Source of the DNA: Odiellus spinosus
Taxonomy: Eukaryota > Arthropoda > Arachnida > Opiliones > Phalangiidae
Assembly: GCA_963920705.1 (NCBI GenBank)
Contig: OY987227.1
Location: 12,689,602-12,753,601, forward strand
Direction: 5' to 3'
DNA length: 64,000 nt
In this document: in pieces, positions 7,840-62,200 of the stretch
How positions within the stretch are numbered: the first letter of the stretch is position 1
Layout of the letters: the number at the start of each line of letters is the position of its first letter
The notes under the pieces: model-generated
Seen by the model: only the letters and a program-made list of their open reading frames with translations
The model's database searches: none
Told to the model about the DNA's origin: nothing
Translations under genes and position numbers: made by a program

Positions 7840-8330
7840 CTTAAATTGATCCTCCATACAAAAATTATATGATATAATACTTATTGCTAAGTCTAATACA
7901 GTCCCCGTACAAAAATGTTAAGCCTAATTCAATCCCTGTACACAATTAAATTCTCGAGCCTATATAATTCAGTCCATGTACACAATCAAATTGCTAAGCC
8001 TAATTCAGACCATGTACAAAATTAAATTGCTAAGCCAAATACAGTCCCCGTACAAAATTAAATTGCTAAGCCTAATTCAATCCCTGTTCAAAATTAAATT
8101 CTCGAGCCTATGTAATTCAGTCCATGTACAAAATGAAATTGCTAAGCCTAATTCAGACCATGTACAAAATCAAATTGCTAAGCCTAATACAGACCATGTA
8201 CGCAATTAAAAGGCTAAGCCTAATTCAGCCGCTGTACAGAATTAAACTAAAGTCTATATCATAAGCCCGTATAAAATTAAATCACTAAGCCCAATTAAAA
8301 CCCGAATGAAATTAATTTGTTCAGCATAAC
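7840..8330. repeat. 36-bp minisatellite, degenerate at both ends
   Basis: Tandem repeat with a unit close to 36 bp. Each unit carries the core TTGCTAAGCCTAATTCAG, then a GTACA(A)AATTAAA part; for example, cores start at 7991 and 8027. Middle units are well conserved, and units before 7950 and after 8230 drift and change length. Because 36 is a multiple of three, one frame stays open through part of the array (7976-8209) and encodes a 12-residue periodic peptide. This is a by-product of the repeat and not evidence for a gene. The core is shared with the 31-bp array near 37.9 kb. Confidence 0.9.
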
Positions 8331-12700: not shown

Positions 12701-13462
12701 GATGGTTTTTAATCAAAACGTCGCTTAGTAAGCGTTTTTTAATTAAAAATAGGGCGTTTTACGAGATTTTTGACGATCGCGTGAGCGAGATGAATTAAAT
12801 TAAAAATTGGATTCGTCTGAATTCTCGCGTCATTTGAATCTAGATATGAAAATTTCATATTTTTCGTAGTGTTTAAATTTTTATCAGTAAATATTTTATA
12901 TTAATGAGAATATTTCACTTTAGAATTGGAGTACAGCCAACTTGTTTTTCAATAAAAAACTGTTGGTGCTTTTAGTATCCTTTACACTATAGTGAAAAAT
13001 TCAAGAGGAATTCGAGCCAGGAAATCGTAAAACACGACCTGCAGTTTTTAAATGATTTTAAAAATAATATTTCCTATGTTAAAGGGATACTAGCGGATAC
13101 TAGACTCTGATAAGTTATTATTAATCCATTGGTACTGTTAAAATACTAGTAAAAACCATACAAAACTGACCAATGATTTCGATGTAATTTACAATTAATT
13201 ATTAAAGTCGCGAACTAAACTAGCTAAGCCTAAAATATATGCCCTCTTAACCCATTTATGTTTTATATATCAGTTCTTCAAATTAATCAGTCAAAATCAG
13301 GTTTAAAGATATAAAAAGTTATTGAAAAGCTATGGGAAATTACAATCCTATAAAGTAAATTATTATTTATATTATAATTTCGAAAAAATCTAAGAAATTG
13401 TGGTAAAAATGTTTTCATATTATAAGTATTACTGACCCATGTATGTTGAATCTTTGTTCCAT

Positions 13463-13812
13463 GGTATCACTTAATACAAACAATAATCCATTCAGGTTCC
13501 ATAAGAATATGGGAGGGCCGCGATTCAATAACCATCCTCCCAAACTTTGTAGCAAAAGTTCGTCTGCTTCGAATCGATTTTTCAAGTAAATCGCTCCTGA
13601 CATATTATTAACCCGCGCCACCAACGACCTTGACATAATATTTTGGGCAATAAAAATGGAGCCGACCGAAAAAAGATCTAAGCGTACAAATGTTGCGAAA
13701 ATTGCAGACGAACTTTTGTTACAAAGTTTGGGAGGATGGTACCAGAGGCTAAAGCTATGCTCCCATATTCTTATGGAACCTGAATGGATTCTTGGTATCA
13801 CTTAATACAAAC
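13463..13812. mobile_element. Foldback (palindromic) repeat element flanked by 19-bp direct repeats
   Basis: The left arm (13488-13566) and right arm (13704-13787) are inverted copies. Outer parts read CCATTCAGGTTCCATAAG and its complement; inner parts read GCAGACGAACTTTTG and its complement. The same 19 bases, GGTATCACTTAATACAAAC, flank the structure on both sides (13463-13481 and 13794-13812) in direct orientation, like a duplication or a shared arm. A 128-codon frame crosses the palindrome on the - strand, but it resembles nothing known and is set by the repeat. The element class is undetermined. Confidence 0.55.
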
Positions 13813-13824
13813 TATTTTAAAAAA

Positions 13825-13964
13825 AAGAACTGCTAGGCATACTTCATGGACTTTATTTTACTTTAAGTTAATCTTTAAAAATAATCTTTAAAGCGGCTCA
13901 AGAAGGACCACGGTTCGAAAACTTTAAAATAAAGTAAACTAAACTCCATGAAGTAGCAGTTCTT
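13825..13964. repeat. Second inverted repeat adjoining the foldback element
   Basis: AAGAACTGCT...ACTTCATGGA...CTTTATTTTA on the left is matched by its inverted copy ending AGCAGTTCTT on the right (13955-13964). The loop of about 50 bp contains CGGCTCAAGAAGG. TATTACTGACCCA occurs both before the first foldback (about 13427) and after this one (about 13981). The two palindromes may therefore be parts of one larger or nested insertion. Confidence 0.5.
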
Positions 13965-27500: not shown

Positions 27501-28814
27501 ACGAACGTTACTTATTTCCCATTGAACGCGATTACGCGATTTACGAGGAAAGGTCGACATTTAAGGAATAAACAGATTTAATTGGATGAGAAGGGACCGA
27601 AGGAAATATTCCGAGGAAAAAATCGTATCCATTTTGATTGCGCGATAATATATGTTAAAGGTCATGACGAATGAACTTCTTATCTTACAATGCACGGTTT
27701 TAATACCAGCATAATAATTATATATACTTGAAATAACATATATACCGAACAAGGTTTCGTAAGAAATTTTCCTGACTTATCCAGGTTTTCTTGACCTTTT
27801 TTTTTAATAATTTCCCTTATCACGGGGGAATAACAAGACACCGGAGTAGTAACATAGATGATAAACAAAAGGGTTATATAGAATATATACGATTAATTAT
27901 AATCGTTTGCAAAAGTATACAAACAAGAGATTCAGAGATGCATTAAAAGACCTATTTGGTCTGAAATTTCCCCCTTTAAAATCATCTTCCTAGCTTTGAC
28001 TGTACAATAGTTGATATTATAAAAGAACTTGTGGGAGCGACATCTTGTAAGAATGTTGCTAACTACGTCACGAAATCACGTGGCGTTAAGGTTATACGGG
28101 GCAGTTATTTCCTTTTTCATGAAACGGTAGGGGCCAGATGGCTCAGAAACCACTCGGGAGAGACCCGACCTTGAGAGCTGACACGGATATTGAAAAAATA
28201 AGCTTAAGAAATGCTCGATGCTCACGAGCCTATGAGCTTTTCGATCTATAACGTGACTGATGATGTAAACGACAACATACCTAAGTAAGCTCTTCCCCTT
28301 TTAAGATAGCAAGTATTTGCTACGGTCATCTGCTAAGCTACAAAAGAAGGCGACTTTAAAGGAGCTTTAAAAATCGCGTTTTCAAACAAGAATCTAAATT
28401 TAAATCGTCAAAACAAAGGTGAAGTTTAAATCAAACTTTTCGTTTAACCAATATTAATATGCTTCAAGTGACAGAGAAGAGTGTATATAAATGGATTTGA
28501 AATAAGCTGCTCTTGGAAAAGCGAAAGCTAAATTTTGAAAAACGCTGATTGAAATATATTGATTATATATAATCTTTAATAGTAAGGCCTAGTTTTTATG
28601 TAACCTCGCACGAACAACCCTGCAATGATTTGTTATAAAATTCGGTAACTTTAACAAAGAAAAAAAACTTACGAACCCAAACAGATTCATTTCCTCTTCA
28701 AAATTTCAATTTTGTAATAAAAAAAAGGCGGTCACATTTTTTGGTCTTCTTATTTAATCTCAAAGCTAAGAAATTTCATAACTATATATTAGGAGAATAC
28801 TTTCGTTTACGTTC
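24561..28814. other. Non-coding DNA with degenerate repeat blocks
   Basis: No coding exon recognised. From about 24790 to 25000 there are repeated, degenerate copies of AATTAGGCTTA-like and AAATTAGAC-like motifs, resembling the inverted form of the TAAGCCTAATT minisatellite core. From about 25010 to 25345 and at 27766-27806 there are loose repeats of TTTCCCTGACCTTTTGGC and related forms. The rest is AT-rich unique-looking DNA. Confidence 0.5.
25010..25345. repeat. Degenerate CCCTGACCTTTTGGC-type repeat cluster
   Basis: At least six imperfect copies of a motif around TTCCCTGACCTTTTGGCTAG/TTTTTAATTT follow each other at irregular spacing. It resembles single loci elsewhere in the window (27.77, 40.4 and 40.7 kb) and the unit of the 32-bp array at 39.2 kb, which also contains TTTCCCTGATTTTTCCAGG. 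Confidence 0.6.
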
Positions 28815-28817
28815 TTA
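28815..28817. other. Target-site duplication TTA, left copy
   Basis: The three bases TTA sit immediately outside the left end of the Harbinger element. An identical TTA sits outside the right end (32244-32246). A 3-bp TTA/TAA duplication is the signature of PIF/Harbinger insertion. Confidence 0.9.
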
Positions 28818-29069
28818 AGGTACGACCAGACTACGTGATTTTTTCGCTTCGCTCGTTACGTAACGCTCGCGCGCGTGGTACGTCTATTCGCGAACATCAA
28901 ACACACATACAAAATTCGCGCCTAAGCCGAGAGCGCAAGCCTTCGCGAACGACGCGAAATTGTTTCGCCCGCCAAAGATTTTCGCTTCGCTCGCGTCCTC
29001 GCGACCAATTGAAGAGCATCTGCGCATCTTTAGCGCATATTCCAGTATCCGGCTAACCGTCGTCTGCTA
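28818..29069 (+). repeat. Left terminal inverted repeat of the Harbinger element (252 bp)
   Basis: Matches the complement of 31992-32243 over 252 bp with two differences noted by eye (near 28919 and 28927). It is CpG-rich, with several GCTTCGCTCG and TCGCGAAC motifs, unlike the AT-rich interior. The accessory gene starts 54 bp inside it, so the repeat probably holds the promoter. A 73-codon frame inside the repeat is mirrored at the other end and is not a gene. Confidence 0.95.
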
Positions 29070-29122
29070 GATAACAAACTATTTTTTTTGTGCTGACTGC
29101 TGGGTACACTTAAAAAGTTAAA

Positions 29123-30175
29123 ATGAGTTGCAGAACTAGTACAGTAATTAATGATGAAGAACTGATTAGTGAAGTTAGAAATTTTCCTGAGCTATGGAAT
29201 TCGAAACTACAGATTTATAAGAATACGAGAAACAAAGACGCGGCGTGGATACGAATTTCAGAAAGAATGAAGTATTCTAGTAAGTTTATACCAAGGCTTA
29301 TTTTTAACTTCCCTCGTTATTTGTGATTAATTAAGAAATTTTCATTTTAGTTGATGATTTAAAAGCTAAATGGAAGGCTCTTCGAGATAAGTACGTTCGG
29401 GAGAAAAAAGCATTGGTTTTTACCCAGTTAAGTGGTAGTGAAGTATCCACAAGAGACACTTGGGATCTATTTGAATTGATGGACTTTTTAAAGGATACCA
29501 TAAAACCTAGAAAGTATAAACAAATCATTACAATTATCTTGTTGGCAATGACTACTTTTCCCTCATTGTTCTTGAACCAAAAAAATATTAATTAAATTTT
29601 AATTTTACTGTAGAACGATAAGTAGCATGACCTACGGAAAAAGGAGTGACGAGGATATAGTTTCTGCTGCGAATTCTAAGCAAGCTGAAACAATGAATGA
29701 GCTGACAATTGAAACTAATTTGGGAGATTTTGTAATTGAACCAATTCCTGAATCAGATGTTGAAGACACGCCGAATAAACAAACTAGCACGATGGAAAAT
29801 CCTCCAAAACCATCAACCAGCTCTTCAAGCTCAGGATTTACACCGAACCGAAACCAAAGTCCATTATCATCTGACAATGCTACCGCTGGGAAAACTTTAA
29901 ATGACAGTGCGAGTTGTTCTAACAAGAAACCTAGATTGAGTAAGAAAGATCCGTACGAACAAACATTACTCAAAATATGGAAGGAAAATAGTGAAATAAT
30001 TAGTAAATCTGAAAATCAAGAATCTGAGGAATTGTTTTTATTAAGTTTAAAAACTGATTTAAAGTCTTTAGAACCCAAATATCAAAGACAAGCTAAGCAA
30101 AAAATTTTAAAAGTTCTTGATGATTTAATTACTGAACAAGAAGCTGAACAAAAGAATAGGGCTTTAAACCATTAA
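29123..30175 (+). CDS. Harbinger accessory protein with MADF and BESS motifs (3 exons)
   Basis: Probable DNA-binding partner of the transposase, taking the place of the Myb-like protein of other Harbinger elements. My model has exons 29123-29279, 29351-29513 and 29614-30175, joined by GTAAGT..TAG and GTATAA..TAG introns of 71 and 100 bp; phases agree and give 293 residues. Residues about 10-95 form a MADF domain (ELISEVRNFPELW, then DLKAKWKALRDKYVREKK). Residues about 160-220 are Ser/Pro/Asn-rich and probably disordered. Residues about 245-279 form a BESS-type protein-interaction motif (EELFLLSLKTDLKSL). AATAAA follows at 30199-30204. It is convergent with the transposase. No breaks are seen. 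MADF-BESS genes also occur as host genes, but the position inside the inverted repeats ties this one to the element. Confidence 0.9.
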
Positions 30176-30610
30176 CTAAATATTTGTACATTGTTTGAAA
30201 TAAAAAAATTGAGCCAGGAAATAATTGTTTAATTAAGATTTTATTTTTTTAGGTGCCAGAAAATAATTGCAATTCAAATAATTATAATTAAATTTGATAA
30301 AACCAGGTTCAATTACATAAGCAAGTTTTGTCATTTTTATTAATCAATATCGAATATAAATTTGATTTCATAAAAAATTGTTTTTGTCATTTTGTTCAAT
30401 TAAAATATATAAATGAATCTGGTTTAATAAATATCGAAAATATCTTTTTTAACAATGTGATAAATTAATTTGGGGTAAACAATATACATTTTTTTGGTTA
30501 AATAATATAGAATATAAATTTGGTTTAAATAATATAGAATTTACTAAATAAATTAAAATACCCGTCTTTTCATAGGGTTCTCCAGCAGATTTAGCTTTAC
30601 TATAATAAGT
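30176..30610. other. AT-rich spacer between the two convergent transposon genes
   Basis: Holds the 3' ends of both transcripts, including AATAAA at 30199-30204 for the + strand gene. It contains degenerate repeats of an AATATAGAATATAAATTTGG-like phrase. No coding capacity is seen. Confidence 0.6.
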
Positions 30611-31980
30611 TTATGCAGATTGATCTCTGTGTCTACCTTGCCAACCTACTTTTCCACTTCCAATAAAATAATTTTTCAAATAGTCTCTTATAACTTTGTT
30701 GATTTGTTTATGCCCTCTAGTACCTTGGCGTGGAAGATTAGTTAAATTAGCATTCAATAGATCTTTCCTCCAATCTCCTTCTTGAAATTGGCCGTTTTCG
30801 TCGATGTAATCTGAAAATTTTTGGGGGCAATAGGTTCTTACTTTCAATTCTTCGTCGTTATGCATTAGAAAGTTATGTAAACAGACAACAGCTTTGACAA
30901 TTTCACACGCATTTTCTGGATTAAGACCAATAGAGATTCTTAAAACCCTAAATCTAACACTTGAAATTCCAAATGCATTCTCAATGCAGCGTCTTGCTCG
31001 AGATAGCCTATAATTGTAGATATCTTCATCATCAGGGAGACACCTTCCAGAATATGGCCTCATCAAATGTGTTTGCAGTGGAAAGGCTTCATCCCCAACA
31101 AAACAGAAAGGAAGTTCAAGGCCATTTTTTTCTATCTTTCTTGGGCTAGGGAAAAAGTTGTCATCTTGTACAGCTTTCCCCAAATCGCAAGCCGCAAACA
31201 CCCCACCATCACTAATACGCCCAAAATTTCCAATATCAACGTAATTAAATTGATAGTTCGCATCACATGAAGCCATTAAAACAATGCTATGGTGCCCTTT
31301 ATAATTGAAGTATTGTGATCCGGCATTTCGAGGAGCTACAAGTTGAATGTGCTTGCCGTCAATGGCGCCAACACAATTTGGAAAGTTCCATTTCCTGAAG
31401 AACTCGAGAGCAGTTTTCAGCATGGATTCTTTTGTCATTGGCGGTAAATACAAAGGCTGGAGCACATCCCATATTACCCTACAGGTTTCTGGGATTATTT
31501 CGGTTACTGTGGATTTTCCCATTCGAAATGCTAAGGACAGTGACCGGTAGCTATCACCGGTTGACAAATACCTAGAAAACCAAATTAATGTTTATTCGCT
31601 GGTGGTGCTTCGATGCTACAGAATTTCACAGTAGCTTACCTTAGCGTTAAATAAAGCCTTTCTTCAGCTGATATACTTTTCCGTAAATGTGTCTCTTGTT
31701 TTGATAGACGGGGCTGAACCAAGTTCAATAAAAAATCAAATTGTGCAGGAATTAATCGGCAATATTCAACATAAAGAGAGTCGTCGTACACCTCAAAATA
31801 TAGCCGCAGTTTGGGAATCAGGTTATGATAGTCGCCATCTCTTTCCCTATCCAAAAATACTTCACGAACCCAAATCCTTCTTCTTCTTTTTATTCTTTTT
31901 CGGTGATTAAGCAACAAAAGCGAGAATATTGCCAAATTATTTATTTCTAAACGCTTCCTCAAAACTCTAGGAGGAGACAT
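30611..31980 (-). CDS. PIF/Harbinger DDE transposase (2 exons)
   Basis: Catalyses excision and insertion of the element. My model has exon 1 at 31980-31640 and exon 2 at 31571-30611. The 68-bp intron has GTAAGC and TAG ends and splits an Arg codon in phase, giving 433 residues. The N-terminal part is Arg/Lys-rich (RKRIKRRRRIW near residue 30). A helix-turn-helix-like segment follows across the splice site (YLSTGDSYRSLSLAFRMGKS). The DDE domain shows GAIDGKHI (D about 185), FVGDEAFPL (D about 274) and RRCIENAFG (E about 311), with 36 residues between the last two acidic residues, all as expected for an active site. It ends RDQSA before TAA. Length and motifs are full for the family. The start lies just inside the right inverted repeat, so that repeat likely carries the promoter. 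Confidence 0.96.
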
Positions 31981-31991
31981 TTTTTAAGTTG

Positions 31992-32243
31992 TAGCAGACG
32001 ACGGTTAGCCGGATACTGGAATATGCGCTAAAGATGCGCAGATGCTCTTCAATTGGTCGCGAGGACGCGAGCGAAGCGAAAATCTTTGGCGGGCGAAACA
32101 ATTTCGCGTCGTTCGCGAAGGCTTGCGCTCTCGGCGTAGGCGCGAATTTTGAATGTGTGTTTGATGTTCGCGAATAGACGTACCACGCGCGCGAGCGTTA
32201 CGTAACGAGCGAAGCGAAAAAATCACGTAGTCTGGTCGTACCT
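31992..32243 (-). repeat. Right terminal inverted repeat of the Harbinger element (252 bp)
   Basis: Inverted copy of 28818-29069 with two differences by eye. It ends TCTGGTCGTACCT directly before the TTA duplication. The transposase start codon (31980) is 12 bp inside its inner edge, so transcription of that gene most likely begins within this repeat. Confidence 0.95.
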
Positions 32244-32246
32244 TTA
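32244..32246. other. Target-site duplication TTA, right copy
   Basis: Matches 28815-28817. Removing the element and one copy would leave the empty site GTTC-TTA-GAAA. Confidence 0.9.
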
Positions 32247-35200
32247 GAAACAAGCCCCTATTTAATTGAAAAGAACTAATAATACATCTAGTATATTCGC
32301 CCCATTTTAAGACAGTTCATATATATATATGCTGGGGATACAAAAAATTCCGGGACTTTTACATCCAAAGTAAAATTCCTTCCACGTTTATCCAATTAAA
32401 ATTTCCTCTCTGTCTCATTTTTTTATTCTTTAGAAAGGCAGAAGAGCTAGTCGCTAAGTAAAAATATTTTTATCGTCTCCAAAGCTTGCTAGCTTTTCGA
32501 ATTTGGAAAAGACTAGGGTTTAAAGGAAGGTTGAAATGTCAAAGCAAATTATTCTATTATTTACGAAAGAAAAAAGCCTAAAAACCATAATACAAAAATG
32601 TATGGCCTAAAATTCTTGGTTTCTTTATAACTATTTGTAAATAATTAATTGCGTTAAATAGTTAATTATCTTATTGGTAGATTGTCATAAGAAATAATTT
32701 AATAAATTAATAAGTTCATACTAAAGAACTAAATACTGAATTTGAAAATCATAAAATAATTTTGTATTTTCCCTGTCCTACCAGTTTTTAACTTTTTCCA
32801 TTTCCCTTAATTACTTTTAAAGATAATCCAAAATAATGAACCAAACATTTTGGTCATTGACGTGTAAAAAAAAATAATAAAATTAATTAAAACAGTAATA
32901 TAAAAATAACCAAAGGTTTAAATTATTTTTTGTTCAGGTGGTAAATAATAAAAAATAATAAAAAAAATATTACCGGTACAGAAAACGTTAAAATATTAAA
33001 TTATGACGTCATTAAATTGAAAAAAACTTTGAAATCCAAAAACTCTAACCTATAAACTTGGTTCCATTGTTATTATTCGAAAAAAAAAGTCCTACAACAA
33101 AATCATACAAAAACTATACCTTTAAATTAATCTGATATTTGATTCTAATGAAAAAGAAAATATTTTTATTTTCATTCTTTTCATTTTCCCTTTAAAAGGA
33201 GGGGGCGAATCTCATTTTAATACGATTGCCCCGCGCCCAAAAGAAGAAGAAGATTGGAGAAAATTGGCCGTGTCAAGTCGAGCTGATATTAAATTCCTAG
33301 GTCTAGCCCCGGCCGCTTCTCTTCCTAGCTCAATATCCCAAAAAAGGCCAGCTTTCTAGTTCCCTTCTCTCTCTTATAACGCTCAGGGCTTTTCTCCCAA
33401 TTTTCTCTCACTCATTCGCTCTCTGTCTCTCTCTTTCTCTTTCGGATGGCGGGATCACACCCTTATATATCTCCACCCGCTAGTTCCCCTTAATCAAAAA
33501 GGCGCCTCGGAATCGGTTACGTAGAAAAATTCAAGCTCCGCTCTCCTTTCCAGACTTAATTGTGTGAATTTTTGACGTAGCGATAGAGAATAATTGCGTT
33601 TTAAAGATTGACGTTCTAATATATCTATTAAGGGTGGATTTAGGAAAAGTGGATAGAAAATATATTGATTAATAAATTACGAATAAAAATTGTAAATTTA
33701 ATTTTAGATTTAATTAAAATTTCCGAGGGAGATAAGTTTTCATGTCCTACAGTATGAGTTTAATTTCTTAAAATTTTGCGAACTGAAAGCTTTTAAAACC
33801 TTAACCAAATTATTATTAACTATTAAAACTAAACGGCTGAAAATAATTATCGCGAATTTCAAAGAGACCATCGATATACTTTTGTTAAGAACTCTAAAAT
33901 TCCAGTCTTTACATTGCTTTTAATAAGTAAAAAGGTAGAAGTAATCTCTACCATAATCCAGACATTATCATCACGCTCAAAAATAGGAATAAATTAAAAC
34001 TGATTGAAAAATAACTTACAGATACGAATGAATATTTTTTCACAAAATTGATATAATTAATGAAAGGCGCACACGCCACGCAACCTGATTATTAATAGCC
34101 TCCTTTCAGTAATATCTAATTCATATTCCGCTATGCCCATCTCTTAATTCATGGGTGTTACGCTAACATATAATATTATATATAGGAAAAGAGGGGAACT
34201 TCGATTAAATTGATTCTATACGGGGAGGAGAAACGCCTCAAATCACTCATATCATCCCGCCAAAACTTTGAACCGTTCGTGCGACGGCCAGAAAGATGAG
34301 GGGGCGGCTTTTTTTACGAGATCTATCCATATAATGAAGCTGAATAGAGAGAAAGACTAAGGATACATCGTATTTAAATATAATCATACAATTGATTATA
34401 ATTATAATTTCCTTATTAAATCGTCATTCATTGAACGTCGAAAGGCTAAATATCTTGCTTTTTCCTAATCCCCTTATCCCAGTTTCTCTCATTTTCCAAA
34501 AACATGCTCTTCATTCAGCCTCGATTCTCGTATAGAAACTATTATATTCGTGGTTAAAAGATGAATACGGAACAAAAATAAAAACCAGTGAAATTATAAT
34601 CTAAACCCGCTTCCATAAAACGTATCTTCATTTAAAATAATTCTTCGTATACTCGTCAATTCGTCCGCGTAGATAAAGGCAATAGATGTGAAAGTATATA
34701 TAAAAGAGATACGCATTATAATGTCTACAACCTCGGCGCTTTTGGCGGTATTGGCTATAAACTAATAGACAAAAGAGAGCGGAGAAAAATGGCTTTGGGA
34801 CGTGGCGTTTTAGGTCGCAATCTTTTCGTCTCATCTCTTAATGACAAACCTTCGGATAAGGGGGATAATTTGATCGTGGCCCGAATCTCCCCCTATAGAA
34901 AATCGAGCGCTGTAGAACGTAGAGTTTTGACAGAGTGGGCTCAGAATGGGGGTGGGTTCTTCTAGGATGAGACACGAGAGCGTGTTGAGGTTGTAAACAA
35001 AATGGCGTCCTGGGGCTCAGAGCGTACAGTCCAGGCCCCCTTTTCCATTACTAATATTGTTCCAATATAAAGGGGGTGGGTCAAACTTTACTCCATCGCC
35101 TTCCTCGGAGCTATACCCCTCTCTCCTTTCCCACGTATTCTTCAAGTGCTCTGATGGGAAATGTCAAGAGTGCTCGCGAGCAATTTCATTAAAAAGAGAT

Positions 35201-37270: not shown

Positions 37271-37860
37271 TTTTTAATTAATTTTGCCCTTTTTTATTTA
37301 AATCTCAATTGTCAATTTTTATTATTTTTCCCTGATATTTTGAATTAATATTCCCTGACATGTTGGATTATCTTTACGATTGATAGTACGAGGCTTCACC
37401 TCAATAATCTTTGCCTCGGGATATTAATTTCACATCCATTTTTTTGCGTGGGGCCCTTCATTGGTTCGATAACGGCCTGATTACTTTAAACGCTTTCGCA
37501 AATTATTTCTCAGAGATATTTAATTGATTCCCAATTATAAATTGATTGAAATAGACGATAAAAAGATAAGAAGGGGGTCCACGTCCGGGGATCAATTCAA
37601 AGATTTATCAAGTACTGTATTTAAGGCAGACTGTCCGCGTAGATCGAGAGAAAAGAAGGTAGAATAAGATTGCTTGGGTGGCTCTGTGTCGCCACAATTT
37701 TTTTTAGTCAACGTAAAGGGAAAATGAAACCAAATTTTACTCGCACTTCTTTTGGATAAAAGTCAATGAAGAAGTAAACGATAAGGTATTAAAGCATATC
37801 CAAATGAAACATTATTATACCATTCGAATAAAACATTATTTTCTACGCCAAAACAACTTT

Positions 37861-38358
37861 CGCTAAGCCTAATTGAATAAAAACAAGTTTTACCAAGCCA
37901 ATTTGAACAAAACTTAACTTTTGCTATGCGTACTTGAACAAAACTTAATTTTTGCTAAGCCTACTTGAACAAAACTTAACTTTTGCTAAGCCTACTTGAA
38001 CAAAACTTAACTTTTGCTAAGCCTACTTGAACAAAACTTAACTTTTGCTAAGCCTACTTGAATAAAACTTAGCTTTTGCTAAGCCTACTTGAACAAAACT
38101 TAACTTTTGCTAAGCCTATTTGAACAAAACTTAACTTTTGCTAAGCCTACTTGAACAAAACTTAACTTTTGCTAAGCCTACTTGAACAAAACTTAGCTTT
38201 TGCTAACCTACTTGAACAAAACTTAACTTTTGCTAAGCCTATTTGAACAAAACTTAACTTTTGCTAAGACTACTTGAAAAACTTAACTTTTACTAAGCCA
38301 GGAAGCCTACTTGAACAAAACTTAACTTTTGCTAAGCCTACTTAAAAAACTCAACATT
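37861..38358. repeat. 31-bp minisatellite, about 16 copies
   Basis: The unit is TTGCTAAGCCTACTTGAACA followed by AAACTTAACTT (31 bp), highly homogeneous from about 37,945 to 38,280 with single-base variants (TTAACTT/TTAGCTT, CTACTT/CTATTT) and one copy with a short insertion near 38,300. Degenerate copies extend left to about 37,830 and right to about 38,480. The unit starts with the same TTGCTAAGCCTA core as the 36-bp array at 7.9 kb. A repeat pattern without unique spacers excludes a CRISPR-type array. Confidence 0.95.
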
Positions 38359-39200
38359 TACTATACCGAAAGTTGAATAAAACACATTTAATTGAATAAA
38401 ACACATTTTCGATAAGTTTCTAATTGATTAAAACTCATTTTTTGAATGAAACTCAATTTTAGTTTGCTAAACCTCCTATACGATAACATATTTTTAATAA
38501 GCTGCCATGAAATAAAACATTAATTTGTAATTTTATTTGAGTTAACTAATACCTTCCCACTAAATTACGCCTATCGATACTGGCTCATTAATGAAAAGTA
38601 ATTATATAATTTATAACATAAAATTCAGTTTCTCTTTAAATAGATTTATATAATTTCTCTCAACTTGGCATAAAGTGTACGCGACGTGAAGTACAACATT
38701 CCGACTGAAAACCTTCACCGGTTGTCAATCAGTCTCTCGTTCTTATCTTTCTAGCACGCAATTGCTTCGCCCAGTCATGAAGCGTGCACGAAAGAGAGCT
38801 CTCGAGAGAAGAAAAAAAAATAAGGTGGAGGCGACATTTTTTATACTATAGCCTCTCTATAGACATACCTAATCAAAATGGGCGTGTACCAAAAACGTGC
38901 CTAAGTTCTTCTCCCGAAGGAAAAAAAATATAAATCCCTCTAATTGAACCCTTATCGGAATCCCGCCTCTACTCTAATATCCACTCTAAAATTCTTATAT
39001 AAAGCCATCCTGTTCGACTTATTTAAACCAATGGAACCTAAGCTTGAAAAGGTAGACTTTTATAAGAGTTTTGTCTCCTTCCCACAATATCAATCCATTC
39101 TGATGCATTTTAGTTTCGTCGAATAAATAACCAAGACTTACTACTATGCAGAAACACAAATGTGGCAACAGTTATTACTTATTTCAACAGGGAGAAAAAT

Positions 39201-39783
39201 TTTCAGGTTTTAACAGTGAATTTCCCCGATTTTTCCAGGTTTTAACAGTGAATTTCCCCGATTTTTTCAGGTTTTAACAGTGAATTTCCCCGATTTCTCC
39301 AGGTTTTAACAGTGAATTTCCCTGATTTTTCCAGGTTTTAACAGTGAATTTCCCTGATTTTTCCAGGTTTTAACAGTGAATTTCCCTGATTTTTCCAGGT
39401 TTTAACAGTGAATTTCCCTGATTTTTCCAGGTTTTAACAGTGAATTTCCCTGATTTTTCCAGGTTTTAACAGTGAATTTCCCTGATTTTTCCAGGTTTTA
39501 ACAGTGAATTTCCCTGATTTTTCCAGGTTTTAACAGTGAATTTCCCTGATTTTTCCAGGTTTTAACAGTGAATTTCCCTGACTTTCCAGGTTTTAACAGT
39601 GAATTTCCCTGATTTTTCCAGGTTTTAACAGTGAATTTCCCTGATTTTTCCAGGTTTTAACAGTGAATTTCCCTGATTTTTCCAGGTTTTAACAGTGAAT
39701 TTCCCTGATTTTTCCAGGTTTTAACAGTGAATTTCCCTGATTTTTCTAGGTTTGAACAGTGAATTTCCCTGATTTTTCCAGCT
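39201..39783. repeat. 32-bp minisatellite, about 18 copies
   Basis: The unit is TTTTAACAGTGAATTTCCCT followed by GATTTTTCCAGG (32 bp). The first three copies carry CCCCGA instead of CCCTGA, one copy is 2 bp short (near 39,585), and the last copies have CTAGG and TTTGAACAG variants, so the array decays at both ends. The TTTCCCTGATTTTTCCAGG phrase resembles loci scattered elsewhere in the window. Confidence 0.95.
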
Positions 39784-41541
39784 TTAAGAAAGAACAATTG
39801 TTCGACATGTTTTTAATCAATCTTAATAATTGCTATCAGTTACTTCAAGGATAACGCGTTCCTTTTTAATCCAAGCTCCTAAATCAAGTTATAATAGTTA
39901 ATTATCTTATGATCAAATTGAAATGTTATAAAATAAGTGAAAAAACTTTTCTACGGCAAAAACTATAGAATTCTTTTCACGAATTCGGTCGAAATCAGTA
40001 GCGCGTGAAATTAAGAGAAAATGGAATAAAACTCTATTTACTTTTACATTAATTTTCGTGACTTGTCACGGCATAAAGGGCATTTTAGTTAATGGTCATA
40101 CTCAGACTATTTCTGATAATTCCTCGCTAAGTTTTCATTAGATCCAATTAGGGTCATAGTCGTAAAAGATTTAGAAAACTAATTTCTCTTTCATGTTTTC
40201 AATACTCTGATCATATTTCATGTCTAAATATTTTTAAATATTATGGGAAAGACCTTCTACAGACCTAATTACAATTTTTAAATCATATCTGCACTATTAC
40301 TTTAAAACAGAAGAAAATAATCTAGTTTTGGTCTGTAGTTTCACGTTATTAATAATACGATATAGTTCCCTGATTTCTCTAGATTATTCTCAGAAAATCA
40401 GGGTTCGAAGTGAGATCACCAGAACTTTCCAGGTTTCCTTTGACCATTTCTAAATGATTTCCATGAAAAATATTTAATATTTTACATGACTATAAGTATT
40501 CGCGCACTTTTTCTATACTTGACAGAGTCTACCAATTAGGGTCGATAGTTTACAAATAAGAGCGTCCGACTCTTTAGAGAAGGCGGCCTGACAATTAAAA
40601 GGTCAACCTATTAGAAACATTTACTTGACCTGTACCGAAATGTTTTATTTCCTTGAACTTAAGGGATCATTTTTAAATTATTTAACTTTTCCAGGTTTTC
40701 CCTGTTTCACCTATATTTCACGGGGTTTTTTGTGATGAAAGCTTAGACTGGATCACAATATTAAACCAAATTTGCGGTTCTTTCTCTCTCCTTAGCCCTT
40801 CCTAACCCAAAACTAAATCTCTAATTTCTTTCTTTCCGGTTTATAAGCAAATGCGTTTTTTAAACGTATAATAAGCCTAAAGGAAAATACGATCACGCAC
40901 GCTCGAGATTGAAGAAAACACGATTAAAAAAGGCCCTCTTAAAGGTTTAAACGCAAAAAAGAAAGACAAAACTACGAGAAACAATGAAATGAGGGGTAAA
41001 AAATAGAATAGAATAGACGTTATCAATTAAGAGGAAGAGAGTATACGCGAATTTCCTGCCGTTTGAGAGTCTCTTCTCTGTATCGTTCGCATCAGAAATT
41101 TTAAAAACATTTTGGAATTAAATTCTAGAGAGTTATAAGATGAAATTATTTTTACGGTGTACTACAACAGGAATTCATATATAAATATATATTAATGCTA
41201 AAACAAATGGGCAAGCGTATTACGAAAACAGAAAAACATTTTGCGAATACCGGTAAATTACCGTCATGTCATGAATGTAGATATATAGAAAATTAAAACA
41301 ACTTTTTAATGTGGAATACTAGTAATTTCATAATTTTTTGTCAATTTCGCAGTTTATCTATAAAATTTCCTCACTAACAAATTTAATTTATAATTGAAAA
41401 TGTCTAGTGTGAACGCGAAGAGAATGAAAGAAAATCGGGTAAGAGTGAACTGAGGGGCGCGAAGAAACGAAACGGAATCGTGGATCGAATTTAAGAGTCA
41501 AAAGAAGACCTTCTTGCACGCGCAATTACGTTTTTCGGGAA

Positions 41542-44792: not shown

Positions 44793-47589
44793 GATTGAAC
44801 TAATGGGATTTCGAGTGATAATTGATGTGTGGATCTTTGACAGTGTTTAAAAAATTAGGCATATTCGAATAATAGAAGAAAAACCATATAAACATTGCTT
44901 TTGGTGTTTGCATGGCGCTCTAATAACAATACTAAAATTTTTAGATCTATTTCGCGAAAATTAATATCAGTCAAAGGATGATCGATTTTCTAACGCAATA
45001 GCATAGCTTTTGGGTAATTTTTTTAAAGTCAAATGATATTAAAATGATTGAATAGTTATAATATATGATAATATTGAGATTTAGGGACGAAAAAATTAAA
45101 CCGGTAAGTCAGTGAGAAGTAAGCTTAAAAAGTATTACGATACTAATTGAGTAAACTAATCAAACTTAATATAAAAATACCATTGTATTAGATGTTGGGA
45201 ATTTTTATGGATAGCAGAGGGAATAAGTAATAAATTAAAAATTATGATAACGCGCTCTGAACTATTTATTTCTCAATTCCGTATCAATCCGCCCTAAAGC
45301 TTCGTTGTATATTTATTGACGCCCTCGGTCAGAATTTTGAGTATTCAGTACGTATAAAGCTAAACTAGCCTCATGTTGTTACGAAACAAAACGTTGATTA
45401 GAAACGGTCTATAGTTTTGAACGCGCTAAACACCAAAACTGATTCTGATTCTATATAGTAGGGAAAGAGAATAAGGGGTGGAAACGTAATTATTTCCCCA
45501 AATTTATTTTCTTAGTTAATTGGGATCTGATACAAGCCTGCGGGAAAGCTTATCGAAAAACGTCTCGTATTAAAGAAGCTAGTGCAAAAAATATGGCCTA
45601 ACCTTATACAGTGTAGAGTATAAATCAATCTATCCTAGCAGCAAAAAGAAAAGCTATAATACCATTCTAAATCTCTTAGCGTTGAGCGAGGTTTGGTTAG
45701 TATAGGTTAATAATCTAGCTAAGGAAATAATGGAAAAGAAGGCAGGTATTGCGGTTGTTAGCTTACAGGGTGGTTATAGACTGAGAATGGGTCGAAATAC
45801 TTCGTAATATAATATATCCCTACGAGAATGTGGAGCCCTTTTAACGTTGAAACCCTTATTATAAAAAAAGATAAGCTAAAAGGATGGGTGATGATAAAAT
45901 TTCTTAAGTAAACATTTAACAGATCAAAGAGAATTCGGGATAAGCTAATAAGACTGAGAGGGGCATCCCCCTGACTTTCCCTGCACTGAATATTTTTTTA
46001 TAGATATATCCTTATAGGTTCATTCTCTGAAAGTTAATTTTCATCATCCCTGGCCTCCCTTTACAAGAAGAAAAAAAAAAAACATGGTAATTAATACAAT
46101 CTTTGCTCAAGCAGAATTGGTTTTTTTTGCACCGTCAGAGCTAATAATAATCTCAGGAAATAAGTTTTCTATCCCCCTTTTTTTGAAGAATGTATAACTT
46201 TGGAAGACCGATATTATAAGAACATAAATGATTAGGTTTTGGTTATTATCATTATTTTTCCCCAATATTGTTTGTTAGTAAACAATAAAGCGTAATTAAA
46301 TTATTACACTGATAATTATTACAAACAAAACTAGTGAGATAAAATATTATTTTTTGGTGTCTACAAATTTATGTTTTGACAAGACAATTCTATAATTTTC
46401 TCGAGGAAATTACGAAAGATTTGAGATTTAAAGGAAAGTCTAGAAAATCTAGAAGATTATCTCACTAACAAAATTCTACGGATGGGAGGAATCAAAACAA
46501 TCCCATATAGACGGTGTATTTACGCTCGAAATCGGATTTAGAGACTGAATTATCTGTCTGGGATGACTGCCTATAAGAGAATTTGAGCATTTTGGCGAGT
46601 GGCTAGAGTGAGAAAGAGAGCTAATATAAAAGAAATAGGACGAAAGTGGTCCGCGGGAGAAGAAAAGTCGATGGCGTAAATTCGCCCAGGCATTGGTGAG
46701 CCAAGCGGGCAGGGAAGCCTCCCCTAAGCCTTGACCATTTTAGCGACAAAACAATTTTCTTGTACAAAACCCCCGTCAGTTCATTAGCGGAATAACCGGC
46801 CCGGAAAAACGAAAGTGATACCAAGGATTCGTACTCGGTCGAGACCGAGAATGGTCGGTTGGATCAATGAGAGACTCGAAAGAGCTGTATTACGATTCGG
46901 AATTCTCGGCTTAAAAGCGTGGATCTATCTTTAAAAGTATTAGGCTATTGGCACTGTTTAGAGAAGCTATTGGAGCAAACACGAGGGCTTTAGGACTTTA
47001 ATAAGAGAAAAACGCGCAAATTAGAAAATAGCTGGTGGAAAATTGACCCCCGTCTACTTCAGACGAAGGTTAGCTTTGACTCTGGTCTCTTTCAGATTGT
47101 AGCACCCAATATCTCAGGATCGCGGAAATCCCCCAATCCCCACAATTTCTCAAAACCCCTCTTCCAAAAATACAATTAAACTGCTTCTACCTTTGGTTGA
47201 AGATCTTAGATGAAACGTCCAGAAAACCATACTTGAAGAGTAGAAACATCCCATTTTTAAAATTAGTAGCGATAAAAGTAAATTTGTATTGTACTTTTGG
47301 TTGTAGTGATTTGAGAATAGTCCGTATTTAGTTTCTGTAGTGAAAAATAATAAAATTACGTATTGTTAAGCATTTTTACTAATAATTTCCAGCTTAAAAA
47401 TTTAAATATTTGAACAAATTAAAGGGATGGGCAATCTAAAGCAAGCTTTAACACAATGACATAGCTTCCACCCCTGTCTCACGTTAGGTATGTGAAATTT
47501 TCCCGACTAAAAACAATAGGGACTTGCCATTTTAGTATACCACCAATCAGAGTGCTGGGGTAAAAGAAAGTTGAATAGTATATATAGCC

Positions 47590-47868
47590 AAGAAGGATCA
47601 GATAAGGAGAGGAAATGTGGGGACGCCGCGGTTCCTACTGCGTCGGCCTAAACTCCCACTCTGGGAGAACGGGGGTAGAGACGTTTCGTGGTAAAATGTT
47701 GTCACGTGGGTAAAACGAATCCTTTATGAGACGCGCTAGCTAGCGACCACGTGACAACAGTTTACCTCGAGAATTTCCTATCCCCCCTTTCCACCCGAGT
47801 GGGAGGTTGGCTCTTCTCTCTCTAACTCAACGCAGCCCCACATTTCCTCTCCTTATCTGATCCTTCTT
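47590..47868. repeat. 279-bp imperfect palindrome upstream of the Hip14 promoter
   Basis: The outer 33 bp of each side (47590-47622 and 47836-47868) are perfect inverted copies. A second perfect 13-bp block lies further in, TGTTGTCACGTGG at 47697-47709 and its complement at 47747-47759. CTCCCACTC and GGGGG blocks also pair between the arms. Each inner block contains a CACGTG E-box. The centre is near 47,729 (CGCTAGCTAGCG). It may be a MITE, since non-coding foldback elements of this size are common, or a regulatory palindrome. No clear target-site duplication was found. Confidence 0.7.
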
Positions 47869-48048
47869 GATATAGCTATATCAGAATGGCGACTGTCACT
47901 GCGACCGATGTGCCAAGACCCTATTGCGAACACTTTTGTCCAAGTTTCAAAGTTATTAAACACACCTAATCATGCTTTGCTTAGAGATATCAAGAGCTGT
48001 AAGGTCCATGGACCCTAGCACTTTTCATTAACACTGAAATAATTAGGT

Positions 48049-48687: not shown

Positions 48688-51600
48688 ATGGCCGATGAGC
48701 TTGATCCCTCGACTTGCGCGCCTGTTTACGCGTGCCAGGTAAAATATTTTCAGTCCATTGGTCACTAAATATAATAAAAAAGATGCGAATCCCATTAAAA
48801 ACCAAAATCAGTAGGAATTTAGAAGAGCAAACGAGAATAGACTCGTAATTATTCTAAGCCTTGGTCGTAGTTTTAGAAGCCATGAGCTACCGCCCATATA
48901 TTTGACGTTATTTTTCGATAATAATCACCCTATAAGTTTAGTTAACTTGGTTTATTTATCCAGGGTAAGGAAGAAGCCAGTTTCGGCACTCAAGATAATA
49001 ACCGTAACGATGCTGGTACAGAAACGACAGCGCCCGCTGGAGATTATAGTAACTTCGATATCGTGAAAGCTACCCAGTACGGCATCTTAGAAAGATGCAA
49101 GGAAATAATAGACAGCGGTTATGACGTAAATCAGAGAGATTCTGAAAATGTGACTTTACTACACTGGGCCGCGATCAATAATCGCCGGGAAATTGTCAAA
49201 TACTTCATTTCAAAAGGTGCTTTAGTCGACGCAATCGGAGGAGAATTACAGGCGACTCCTTTACATTGGGCCACTCGCCAAGGCCATTTAAATATGGTTT
49301 GTTTACTAATGCAACACAGCGCTGATCCCTCATTAAGAGACGGAGAAGGTAAAATTCAAATACATCATTTTTTAATTCAATTTTAAGTATAAACTAATCT
49401 CTGTAAATTATCTCTCTCCAGGTTGTTGCTGTTTGCATTTAGCAGCTGAATTTGGTCATACAGCCATCGTAGCTTATCTAATCGCTAAAGGGGAGAATGT
49501 AAATGTTCTTGATCGAAATGGAATGACCCCGTTGATGTGGGCGGCCTATAGAGTTACTACGTAAGAAGTAGCATTCGAACTGAGTTTGAATACCTTTTAA
49601 TTTTTGGCTTTAATTTAGGAATGATCCAACGAGATTGCTTATAACCTTGGGCGCCAGCTTAACGATGACTGATAGACACCACCGAAATACTCCTTTACAC
49701 TGGGCAGTCTATGCTCGAAATAGTACAGCAATCACCCTTTTACTCCGAGCTGGGAGCAACGTTTTCGCTCGAAATGGACAAGGAGATTCCCCTAAAGCCA
49801 TGGCTGAAAAAATGAAATCAACTTGGTTAGCCCAGAGGTTGGAAGAGGCTGAAAAAGAATGGGAAGTCAAAAATAAGCACATATTTATCAGATTTCACAG
49901 AGATAAGGTAATGATAATAAATAGCTCAATTAAAACGCAGATCTTGCTCTAAGACTAATCTAAGTTTGTTTCGAACAGAGCCTAAGGTATTGGTGTATGT
50001 TCGCTTCACCTTTCGTCGGGTTTTATTTAGTAGGAGCAATTTTTGAAAGCAGCGAGCCTTATCTAGTCAAATTAGGCTTTTTGATGATCCTAGTGGCTTT
50101 ATTTTCAATAATTAGCAAGTACGTAACTCTTTCAAACATCAAATTTAGACCTTAACGAGATACTAATTAAAAAATTATCTTAAAGATTCTTTTTTGACGA
50201 TCGGTTCCTGAATGTTCTTCCAATTTCCGTTTATCTCTCGACCAAATTCTGGATGTACGTCACTTGGTTTACGTATTTGTGGCCGTGTATCCTTTTATAC
50301 CAAATCTTTCTTGAAAAATCTTCACCAAATTACCTTTAAAGAAATTCCTTTACAATAAAACTTAAGACGTTGGTACGCCGGCCAAAACGATAGGTTTCGT
50401 CGTGACATCAACGTTTTTGTATTATAACTTTTACAAGGCTTGGAAATCCGATCCAGGATCGGTTCAGGGAGATCAACAGCAACAATTTCGAACGATTATT
50501 GAATTGGCAGAGAGAGACGGCTTCAACCCTACTTGGTTTTGCAGCACTTGTTTAGTCCAACGACCTTTAAGATCAAAACACTGTTCCATTTGTAATCGTT
50601 GCGTGGCACGATTCGACCATCATTGTCCTTGGGTATCTAACTGCGTTGGTGAGTAAATTGGCTGTTTGCTTTTCACTTTAGATAAAGGGATAATGAAGAT
50701 GTGTAACGTGTTTATGGTGGAATTTATTTAGTGGCGAATGCCTTAGAAATTTAATACTTTGAACTGTTGATCAACCGTTTAAAAAATCCCACATCTTTTT
50801 CGGTTACGTCGTTCTTTGATTATTTGTCAAGTATTCCATCAGATTTATCCATGGTTTTAATTTTTACCCTTCTGAAATTAGAGTTAGACTTAGCTGGCTC
50901 AAATTGCAACTTCATTATCTTTAAAATGTAAATTAACGTGAAGCTTAAGTGGAGTTATAATGTTTCATAAGTATTTTAATCTATTAAAAACGAAACGTTC
51001 ATTATCCCTTTATCTAGGAAAATAAAGGAAGTATAAAGCCAAACAAAAAATCGTTTACCAAGTCTCGTTTCCTAACGTAAATACTGGCGATTTTAGTGAA
51101 TATTTGTTAAAGGTAATGGGAATGTCAAGCCGTAGCTTCCACCTTGGCCAGAGCTTTATACTCCCTTTAAAAAATTAAAATATAACTTAACATTTGGTAT
51201 TTTATTCAGGTTTGGGAAATCATCGTTACTTTGTAAACTATCTCTTATTTCTGAGTATAATGATATTGTGGTGTTTATACGGATGTTTCCTGTGTAAGAT
51301 AATCTTCTCTGTCAAATTTTAACGAATTGCTCGCAATAAGATTCATTTCCCCTTAATATCTTAGTTTGGTACGGCCATTGGTCACCTAGTAACATATCGG
51401 CGTTTTCATTTTTATGGAAATCTCTATTCGTGAGTGGATGGGTTAGTTGGATCGCAGTCAACGCCTTACTGCACGGTGCCTGGGTTATCTGTCTCTTAGG
51501 ATGTCAGCTTTATCAGGTATAAAAATGTTTTTTTTTTTTCGCTGAAATATCATCTCGCAAAGTTTAAACTCAACCTTTTAATTTTTCCTAATAGATAATG

Positions 51601-59292: not shown

Positions 59293-62200
59293 TCAGACTT
59301 TGTCTTTGGGTCGATTAGTGGTATCGTAACTCATCCGACGACCGTTGGCGATATGTCGCCCCACTTCTTCTCGCCTTTGCGAAAGTAGTTTGGCCTCCCG
59401 TTCGAAGATATCGGCGGTGGCGTCTTGGTCAGATTTGCACCTGGCCATTATAACGCCTCCGGATCCGGCGCCCGAGCCCAAAGCCATGTCGTCGCTGGCC
59501 ACTTGGGCGTGGGTCGGTGTCGGCGACAAGGATTCGGAACCGCAAGAAGAGCTATCGCTTAATTCGGCCGTGGGTCTGCGACTGATACGCGGCGACATAT
59601 TAGGACGGCGCCCGAGAATTTGAGCTTGAATATGCTCGCAAATTCGTTTGAACCTTCTGATGGGACCTGTTCACGTCCAACAAACGCAACCACGAGGGTT
59701 AAACTCGGAATACGAGAGGGCTATCGCGCGACAACTATACCAATAGAGAACTGATTCGGTAAAAACTCGACAATCTAATTTAACCCGCTGGTATCCAACC
59801 ACATCTCTCTAAGGTTAATTCCCTTAGATTCAGTCAAAGATTATTAGGTCTATACCCTTTCGTATCAGTGCCACGTGATACAAAACTGAACCATCGTAAT
59901 TCTAAGGCTATAGTAGTCCACCGAGACTCGGCGTCAACGTAGCATTTACTTTACGGTGACCCAAGCTCCGGCGGAGCTCTGAGCTTATAGTTGAAACGAA
60001 CGAATCAGTTCCCCGTATTGTAAACAACCAACAACATCGAGAAGGATTACGATTGGATTAAGGGAAGACATAGCTAACCGTTCGTACCGGATATGAGTGT
60101 AAAACTAATGCAATAAACGGAAGGTTTGTCCCCGTTGTTAAATCTGTCGAGTCCGTTAGTGGCGGCTAGAGTAACCTCGTTGAGAGGACCAGCGCTGACG
60201 GCCGTGATATCCACGTGGAATCGAATATTACGTTGAAACATGGTTGGCCCACCCGGCCGCTTGTACTCGACGCGAAAAGACATCGGCGACACTACGCTGT
60301 GGCTCAAATCCGCGATCTACACGGACGCCGGTCGCGTGACGTACAAAAGATGGCGACATTTTAAATAAATCAAAGAAATATTGCGAAACAAATTCGACTA
60401 ATCATATTTTTATCAGGTATTTTGGTGCGTAATGCAACAAAGCGGTGGTTCCTTCTTCAAAAGACTAGGCTATACGCGCTCCGAGAATTAAAATAGTGAA
60501 TAAAAGCTTTTTCGAGCCCAAAGTGAATATAATATTTCGAAACTAGCATGGTGGTCGTGAATATTAAGTGCACGTGAGAAAAAAAGATTTAGGTACTTTT
60601 GAAGGAAGACCCAAAAATTCAAATGAAATAATGCTTGAAAAAAATGGAGTATTTTTTTGTAATACCGGTACTTTAAAAATGGAATAAAAAAGCTGAATTT
60701 TTAAAAGGGCCTTTCGTTTTCTGAATATATTACCCGTGGAGGAAACAGACTCGAAATGTGGAAATTACAAATCTTATACGCAAAATCAAAGAAATCAAAT
60801 ATTTAAAGAAGAAAATCAAAATATATCGAATCTTAATTTAATTCATTAGCCATCGAAAAAAGGGGGATTGAAATTGTGGAAATTGTTTAATACTCTTGAA
60901 AAGTTAGATTCAAGTGCAAATAGAAATCGTGTCAAGAATTGATTTAGAAGTTTACGAATAATATAAAAAATACATCATACAACGTGCTTCGTTTAAAATT
61001 CCGAAAGAAGAGTTTGATTATCCATAAAATCCGGGTAAAAAGGGGTTTAATTGGAGATATTAAAATTATCGCAACCAAATAGAATCGAGACCAAAGAAAT
61101 AATCGGAAAATTACGAAGAAAAAAATTAAAAAAAAATCATATAAAATTATAAAGTAAAACAAGATACGTGTGTGCGATGATGAAAATGCTCTAGGCCTAA
61201 GAGATAAACTGGTTTTTAAATATAAATAATGATTTGGAATAATTCAAGTACCGGCATTAGAGAAAAAGAAATGTAACGCACAGAAAGGAAGGCATGGATG
61301 AGATCAGCTTTTACGCAGCTCAATGGCCGATCTTTGACCAAGATCACGTGACTTTCGTCGCGTTCGGTGCTCATTAAACTGCCAAACCAAGAACGTTTTG
61401 TCAACCTGAAATCGACGGAATGGAATAAAGAGGAAAAAATGGGATTGGAAGAAGAAGAAAAAACGTCTTTTAGAAATTATGTTGGGACGAACGCGACTAG
61501 GAGTCTGACACTCGCGGATAATTGGGTAGTTTTAAAGAGAATACAAAATACTATTAATAACTTCAATCGTGTTTACCAAATATTTAAATACTGACGAAGA
61601 TCAGGGGGTCAAAAAATCGCTATTGTACCTTTTTAGCAGAGATGGTTTTTTGATTCATTTTCGTTTGATCTTAAATTAAGTTTGGCATATAGTTTTAAAA
61701 CTAAAAAAATACCTTGAAAAACAAATTTAGAAGACCTGACTTGATTGTTTTCCCCGCAAAATAATCTCGAGTATTAATTGATATCCAAAAAGAAACCCTT
61801 ACGGATTTCGGCAAATCTCAAAAAATGTATCCCAAATTAATCACAAGCCGTCGAAACCCCTAGTATTTAGCAAGACGAGTCTTAAAATGAATAAACAAAT
61901 CTTGGCGTAACGTAGATCTCGGAGAGAAAACTCACTCTGGCGATGAATCCGGTGTCAGACTAACTTCATCCGATGCGGATGGAACTGAAACATCAGTTAA
62001 TCAATTTTCCCAACCAATTCGTATTTGGGCATCATAAGCGGAAGGTTAATATTCTATACCTTGTAATTTTCGCCTATGGAACCTAGGGCTACCTAGGAAG
62101 CTGTTTTTGAGAGTATTGAGCCTCGACTTCCAGTAAGGTTGGCTGACGCTAGGAGAACCCGGAGGAGTGTTGAGGGGGCTTTCTTCGGGCGTGCCCCTGG

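Follow-up and report, generated by a model that had tools for sequence, protein, structure and literature searches.

A probable autonomous, recently amplified PIF/Harbinger-type DNA transposon in the genome of the harvestman Odiellus spinosus

We analyzed a stretch of 64,000 nucleotides from the Odiellus spinosus genome (contig OY987227.1, positions 12,689,602 to 12,753,601; hereafter the window), which holds a compact two-gene element bounded by terminal inverted repeats (TIRs) and target-site duplications (TSDs). The two genes, encoding a MADF-BESS protein and a transposase, face inward and converge from opposite TIRs. The parts of the element are as follows, in window coordinates:

28818..32243: whole element, 3,426 bp; at least nine genomic copies share these ends
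28815..28817: left TSD, TTA
32244..32246: right TSD, TTA
28818..29069, + strand: left TIR, 252 bp, GC 0.53
31992..32243, - strand: right TIR, 252 bp
28841..28855, + strand: 15-bp TIR subrepeat, copy 1 (TIR positions 24-38)
28979..28993, + strand: 15-bp TIR subrepeat, copy 2 (TIR positions 162-176)
29123..29279, + strand: MADF-BESS gene, exon 1; start codon 53 nt inward of the left TIR
29351..29513, + strand: MADF-BESS gene, exon 2
29614..30175, + strand: MADF-BESS gene, exon 3, ending at the stop codon and encoding the BESS motif close to the C-terminus
30176..30610: spacer separating the convergent 3' ends; poly(A)-type hexamers on each strand (a listing, with no control)
30611..31571, - strand: transposase gene, exon 2 with stop; DDE_Tnp_4 domain
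31640..31980, - strand: transposase gene, exon 1; start codon 11 nt inward of the right TIR

Compared base by base, the TIR arms differ at exactly two places, TIR positions 92 (A/T) and 108 (A/C), and their likeness ends at position 253. This bears out the 252-bp inverted ends with about two differences described in an initial annotation of this DNA, and the perfect TTA duplication described there also holds for the window copy. Apart from the TIRs, a repeat search (seed 14) returned no inverted pair of 60 bp or more in the window; it gave the TIR pair as 28812-29069 and 31992-32249, the extra length coming from flanks that are partly symmetric by chance. No 14-mer was common to the TIRs and the rest of the window, and a 20-base end pattern, allowing up to three mismatches, matched the window only at the element's own two ends and shuffled sequences not at all. 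The TIR is richer in GC than the element interior (0.53 vs 0.33), and the left TIR holds 36 CpG vs 17 expected from base composition. Its 15-bp direct repeat reached a length seen in none of 300 dinucleotide shuffles, and both subrepeats are found again in the right TIR; they may represent a pair of binding sites. Folding of the TIR was no better than that of shuffles (z 0.63).

The MADF-BESS gene has three exons and encodes 293 amino acids (294 codons including the stop), and the transposase gene has two exons and encodes 433 (434 codons including the stop). All introns are GT-AG (71 and 100 bp in the MADF-BESS gene, 68 bp in the transposase gene) and both frames are open, in agreement with the complete accessory gene and clean introns reported previously. 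In Pfam, the MADF protein matched MADF_DNA_bdg (E 2.7e-18, residues 14-99) and BESS (E 6.1e-7), with Myb_DNA-bind_4 under the cut-off, and the transposase matched DDE_Tnp_4 (E 1.6e-27); the MADF sequence searched had one wrong residue, at the second exon junction and outside both of its matches. The three acidic residues noted earlier were assigned by motif to D185, D274, and E311 (spacing 88 and 36), the putative catalytic residues. Because the ATGs of the two predicted genes sit only 53 and 11 nt inside the TIR edges, most of the promoter and 5' untranslated sequence must, on these gene models, fall within the TIRs or beyond the element ends.

We searched the assembly (443,074,358 bp in 286 contigs) for the near-identical copies that the initial annotation had proposed to look for; all copy counts are lower bounds, as the DNA search scored the best 40 of 92 candidates. 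At least nine full-length copies, the window copy (L009) included, were found on eight contigs. One of them, L010 on contig C2, is identical to the window copy across 3,426 bp, five (L011-L015) differ from it at one position each, and L016 differs at two. Among themselves these eight copies vary at just two sites of 3,426 bp, one giving leucine or methionine at MADF residue 215 and the other a synonymous transposase change. At position 1119, L017 and the six others have A, the window copy and L010 T. This seemingly derived T, which changes MADF residue 215 from M to L, makes the two copies that share it look like closest kin. L017 is the most diverged full-length copy, with eight substitutions relative to the window copy besides the shared one at 1119, a 2-bp insertion, a 28-bp spacer insertion, and a 3-bp deletion; these include missense changes and leave its transposase one residue shorter. 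Far from all copies being disabled, an outcome that the initial annotation had considered, in nine of nine full-length copies both reading frames are intact up to a single terminal stop, and the splice dinucleotides are identical.

Four further copies of 779 bp, mutually identical, carry an internal deletion with its junction at 436/3084, as taken from BLAST, the MAFFT alignment being unreliable around the deletion. They probably descend from the branch that includes L017, because these copies and L017 have the same 2-bp insertion at 264. There are thus 13 two-ended copies (nine full-length and four of 779 bp). The end pattern with up to two mismatches matched the genome 27 times (reversed control 0), of which 18 matches belong to the full-length copies, eight to the 779-bp copies, and one to a truncated end. 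This single family end (L029, G000:C18:2322898-2322927) has 47 bp of TIR left. When the 400-bp flanks, 26 in all, were compared, a single match between copies was seen, 63 bp at 79% identity (L010/L016). Because their flanks differ, the copies are separate insertions, and segmental duplication was rejected. An empty allele of the window site (empty-site sequence GTTCTTAGAAAC) was not found among the best 40 of 254 candidates in the assembly. Four joined flank pairs of the 13 were searched in this way (window, L013, L019, L021); because most matches fell on repeats around L021, finding no empty site for the window, L013, or L019 is weak evidence.

TIR-like sequence of ~66-90% identity also occurs at loci L025-L028 and L032-L044, which are probably older non-autonomous relatives. 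In collections of viral contigs and genome contigs, which by design contain no animal genomes, the TIR pattern had no match, and the search for relatives by protein gave 18 pattern matches in each collection, none of them confirmed by tblastn.

Near-identity of the TIRs had been used in the initial annotation to date the insertion. This dating fails: each of the 13 two-ended copies carries both TIR mismatches. The mismatches are thus older than the burst and say nothing about the age of the window insertion, and TIR divergence was rejected as a clock. The recent insertion itself is supported by the identity between copies, and the insertion is younger than the earlier argument implied. Across the eight young copies, a single copy carries a private variant, at one site; this corresponds to 3.6e-5 per site with a 95% upper bound of 2.0e-4. 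A typical insect estimate is ~3e-9 substitutions per site per generation. At this rate the age would be of the order of about ten thousand generations with an upper bound near seventy thousand, an estimate that is too low if gene conversion acted between copies. When neutral decay to 1.5% divergence was simulated in 1,000 runs, both genes remained open in 13.1% of runs without indels, in 0.6% at 0.1 indel per substitution, and in none at 0.2.

A diverged sister family was found on C1 and C158 at five loci (L022, L023, L024, L030, L031). At four of the five, the MADF and transposase genes converge as they do in the window element; the stretch examined at L022 gave no MADF match. Aligned with exon 2 of the window transposase, all five are free of stops in the aligned part, with synonymous differences (pS) of 0.76-0.80, which are saturated, and nonsynonymous differences (pN) of 0.14-0.22. 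The acidic residues are the same wherever aligned, namely all three in L022 and L023 and the second D and the E in L024, L030, and L031. The sister TIRs align to those of the window over ~80 bp only, with gaps. Because exon 2 lacks stops in the sister family, pN is far below pS, and the acidic residues are conserved, these sequences indicate a transposase long kept functional, as expected of an element that persists by moving.

With a probability of roughly 0.9, we interpret the element as an autonomous PIF/Harbinger-type DNA transposon (PHIS superfamily) inserted in a very recent burst. The anatomy of TIRs and TSDs together with the Pfam matches supports the complete two-gene PIF/Harbinger identity that was initially suggested. 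Promoter-like motifs include Inr and TATA, and GYYGYYGYY is an Adf1-like motif. Several results weigh against our interpretation. The transposase scored 23.9 bits for HTH_Tnp_4, under the Pfam cut-off of 27; a PDB sequence search with either protein returned no chain at E <= 0.001; and an AlphaFold2 single-sequence model of transposase exon 2 was uninformative (mean pLDDT 34.4). Counts of Inr, TATA, and GYYGYYGYY in the left TIR were below or near the shuffle means, and none exceeded the shuffles. The target sites belong to the same list, for two reasons. The TSDs match in 10 of the 13 two-ended copies (TAA five times, TTA and TGA twice each, TCA once), so that the family duplicates TNA and not strictly TWA (7/10 TWA, 3/10 TCA or TGA). 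In the other three they differ by one base each (L013 TAA/TTA, L019 TAA/TAC, L021 TGA/TAA), at the middle position in two of the three. The TTA duplication of the initial annotation therefore describes the window copy and does not extend to the family as a whole.

The unequal TSDs are more than ordinary mutation predicts at this age. Over the 54 TSD bp of the nine full-length copies, 0.002 substitutions are expected (0.011 at the upper rate) vs one unequal TSD, and over the 24 TSD bp of the 779-bp copies at most 0.028 vs two. The case of L021 may have another cause: both of its flanks match dispersed repeats, and other copies of the right-hand repeat also have TAA in front. As its TSD is not cleanly readable, 2 of 12 are the cleaner unequal cases. 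On its right flank (G000:C1 ~35137630-35137717), this deletion copy directly abuts the small dispersed repeat (TAA then AGGCTGACACGCG). At least several dozen places related to the AGGCTGACACGCG repeat were listed. A diverged paralogue of the whole L021 site on C2 has neither the repeat nor the deletion copy.

Unequal TSDs could arise by carry-over of the donor TSD. Excision would split each donor TSD, the element would leave with 3-nt tails, and one tail sealed into the new site would make the two new TSDs differ. For mPing, staggered cutting at the TSD has been proposed as a model; where 46 new insertions landed did not, however, depend on the donor TSD (PMC4561436). We consider it quite unlikely that such carry-over operates together with a MuDR-like layout in which the long TIRs serve both genes as promoter and binding array. 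If true, the family would record an unproven step in Harbinger transposition. Gene conversion running past the TIR and repair errors are other possible sources, and the sample is too small to choose among them. Among the literature titles and abstracts listed, we saw no report of unequal TSDs in natural Harbinger copies, which is not a claim that none is in print.

The TNA target also raises the question of whether the element should be placed in NuwaII, a group of the PHIS superfamily with the target C|TNA|G, and not in PIF/Harbinger in the strict sense. The TCA and TGA duplications fit such a placement, and so does the base immediately beyond the right TSD, a G in 10 of 13 copies (binomial p 6e-6 vs flank composition); NuwaII elements, too, combine genes for a DDE transposase and a Myb/SANT protein (PMC4482050). 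A C precedes the left TSD in only 5 of 13 copies (p 0.07), however, and the TIR begins AGG, not GG, and measures 252 bp vs the 13-46 bp given for NuwaII, whose host list has no insects (PMC4482050). TNA is moreover not exclusive to that group, since C or G in the middle of the TSD has little effect on mPing excision (PMC4561436). Taken together, we regard a NuwaII placement as unlikely. The copies may also no longer move. The family may have been silenced after a short burst with all insertions now fixed, in line with the absence of an empty window site among the best 40 of 254 candidates and with the missense changes and one-residue deletion of L017; the identical L010 and the one private site in 8 x 3,426 bp leave little time for fixation, though, and frames are open in 9/9 full-length copies. 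Present immobility is a serious possibility, if the less probable one.

Two further explanations would remove recent transposition, or the transposon itself, from the account. Identity between the copies could stem from assembly error, gene conversion, or segmental duplication, and conversion between copies is indeed possible. Each copy nevertheless has its own flanks, on eight large contigs, ten carry matching 3-bp TSDs at the element ends, and the copies retain variants of their own, so that we hold this origin to be very improbable. A domesticated pair of transposon-derived host genes would account for two genes that are intact and adjacent, as in insect co-domestications (PMC9710019). The domesticated pairs described there lack TIRs and TSDs, and the Anopheles pairs are single-copy (PMC9710019), whereas here TIRs, TSDs, near-identical copies in different flanks, and internal-deletion derivatives are all present. 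With TIRs and TSDs in place and multiple copies, we rejected domestication, which has hardly any probability left.

For the autonomous PIF/Harbinger-type transposon that we favor, a plausible cycle can be outlined. Transcripts would start in or beside the two TIRs, the MADF-BESS transcript from one end and that of the DDE transposase from the other. The fish protein ADF-1L is a precedent for a MADF protein at TIR sequence. It derives from a Harbinger element, and the TIR sequence that it binds lies in the promoter region of its own gene (PMC11893794). As Harbinger and MADF work suggests, the MADF protein of the element would bind sites in the TIRs and bring in the transposase, which would excise the element with a 3-nt stagger; insertion would follow at TNA, mostly with G next, leaving a 3-bp TSD. 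The fish Harbinger element behind much of the mechanism work was reconstructed, so candidate naturally mobile animal elements are useful. With its young copies, short derivative, and intact partner gene, the family would allow direct tests of how a Harbinger element moves autonomously, how it chooses its targets, and what the MADF protein contributes. For the genome project, the insertion sites of the family are flagged as likely polymorphic.

Across the window, Pfam searches with 20 open reading frames (of 100 listed of at least 75 amino acids, transposon frames included) gave matches for five and none for 15. The nearest recognized host genes are the following:

48946-50656, + strand: parts of an ankyrin-DHHC palmitoyltransferase (Pfam), presumably Hip14/ZDHHC17-like
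60077-60316 (KA1_BRSK, E 8.2e-17) and 59296-59670 (weak, E 0.002), - strand: C-terminal parts of a BRSK/SAD-type kinase

Foldback sequences of ~310-410 bp with long imperfect arms lie at 13437-13849 and 47572-47883. They look like dispersed foldback miniature inverted-repeat transposable elements, and arms resembling theirs are also found in L039 (1355-2539) and L037 (58-338). Minisatellites with units of 31-36 bp occupy 37855-38363, 39200-39785, and 7883-8246, and their motifs (TTCCCTGA or GCTAAGCC) are also scattered across the window.

Among known systems, mPing/Ping/Pong of rice likewise includes short derivatives of a longer element. It also resembles the present family in its recent burst (PMC6367367), and staggered cutting at the TSD, as outlined above for our element, has been proposed for it (PMC4561436). 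It differs in that our family has an animal host, a MADF partner, and long TIRs, with only four deletion copies found. MuDR of maize (Mutator superfamily) is similar in layout only, with TIRs of ~200 bp and two convergent genes that each start just inside a TIR. Its 200-bp TIRs act as promoters for both genes (PMC8224964), a role that the TIRs described here may share, and its transposase family and partner protein are unrelated. The Spy transposon of the insect Colletes gigas is a naturally active member of the PHIS superfamily (PMC11304231); it belongs to another PHIS group, and its activity has been demonstrated, whereas our element is known from sequence alone. NuwaII resembles the element in its TNA target with a 3' G and its two genes (PMC4482050) and differs in TIR length, first TIR bases, and host range, with the 5' C weak in our copies.

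Closest in content are the insect PIF/Harbinger elements, which have a DDE_Tnp_4 transposase, a MADF partner gene, TIRs, and a 3-bp TSD (PMC9710019, PMC4482050); a TIR of 252 bp and a TNA duplication set the present element apart. The duplication of PIF/Harbinger is given as TWA, and the TIRs as 5-1042 bp long, under 60 bp in ~93% of families and usually beginning with A or G (PMC4482050). Other sources put the TIRs at 14-25 bp for autonomous PIF/Harbinger-like elements (PMC2213677), usually 25-50 bp (PMC9179366), and ~15 bp (PMC9710019). At 252 bp and starting AGG, our TIR falls within the PIF/Harbinger range and has one of the usual first bases. The element is of an ordinary kind, in unusually good condition shortly after amplification, with a TIR length in the rare tail of its group.

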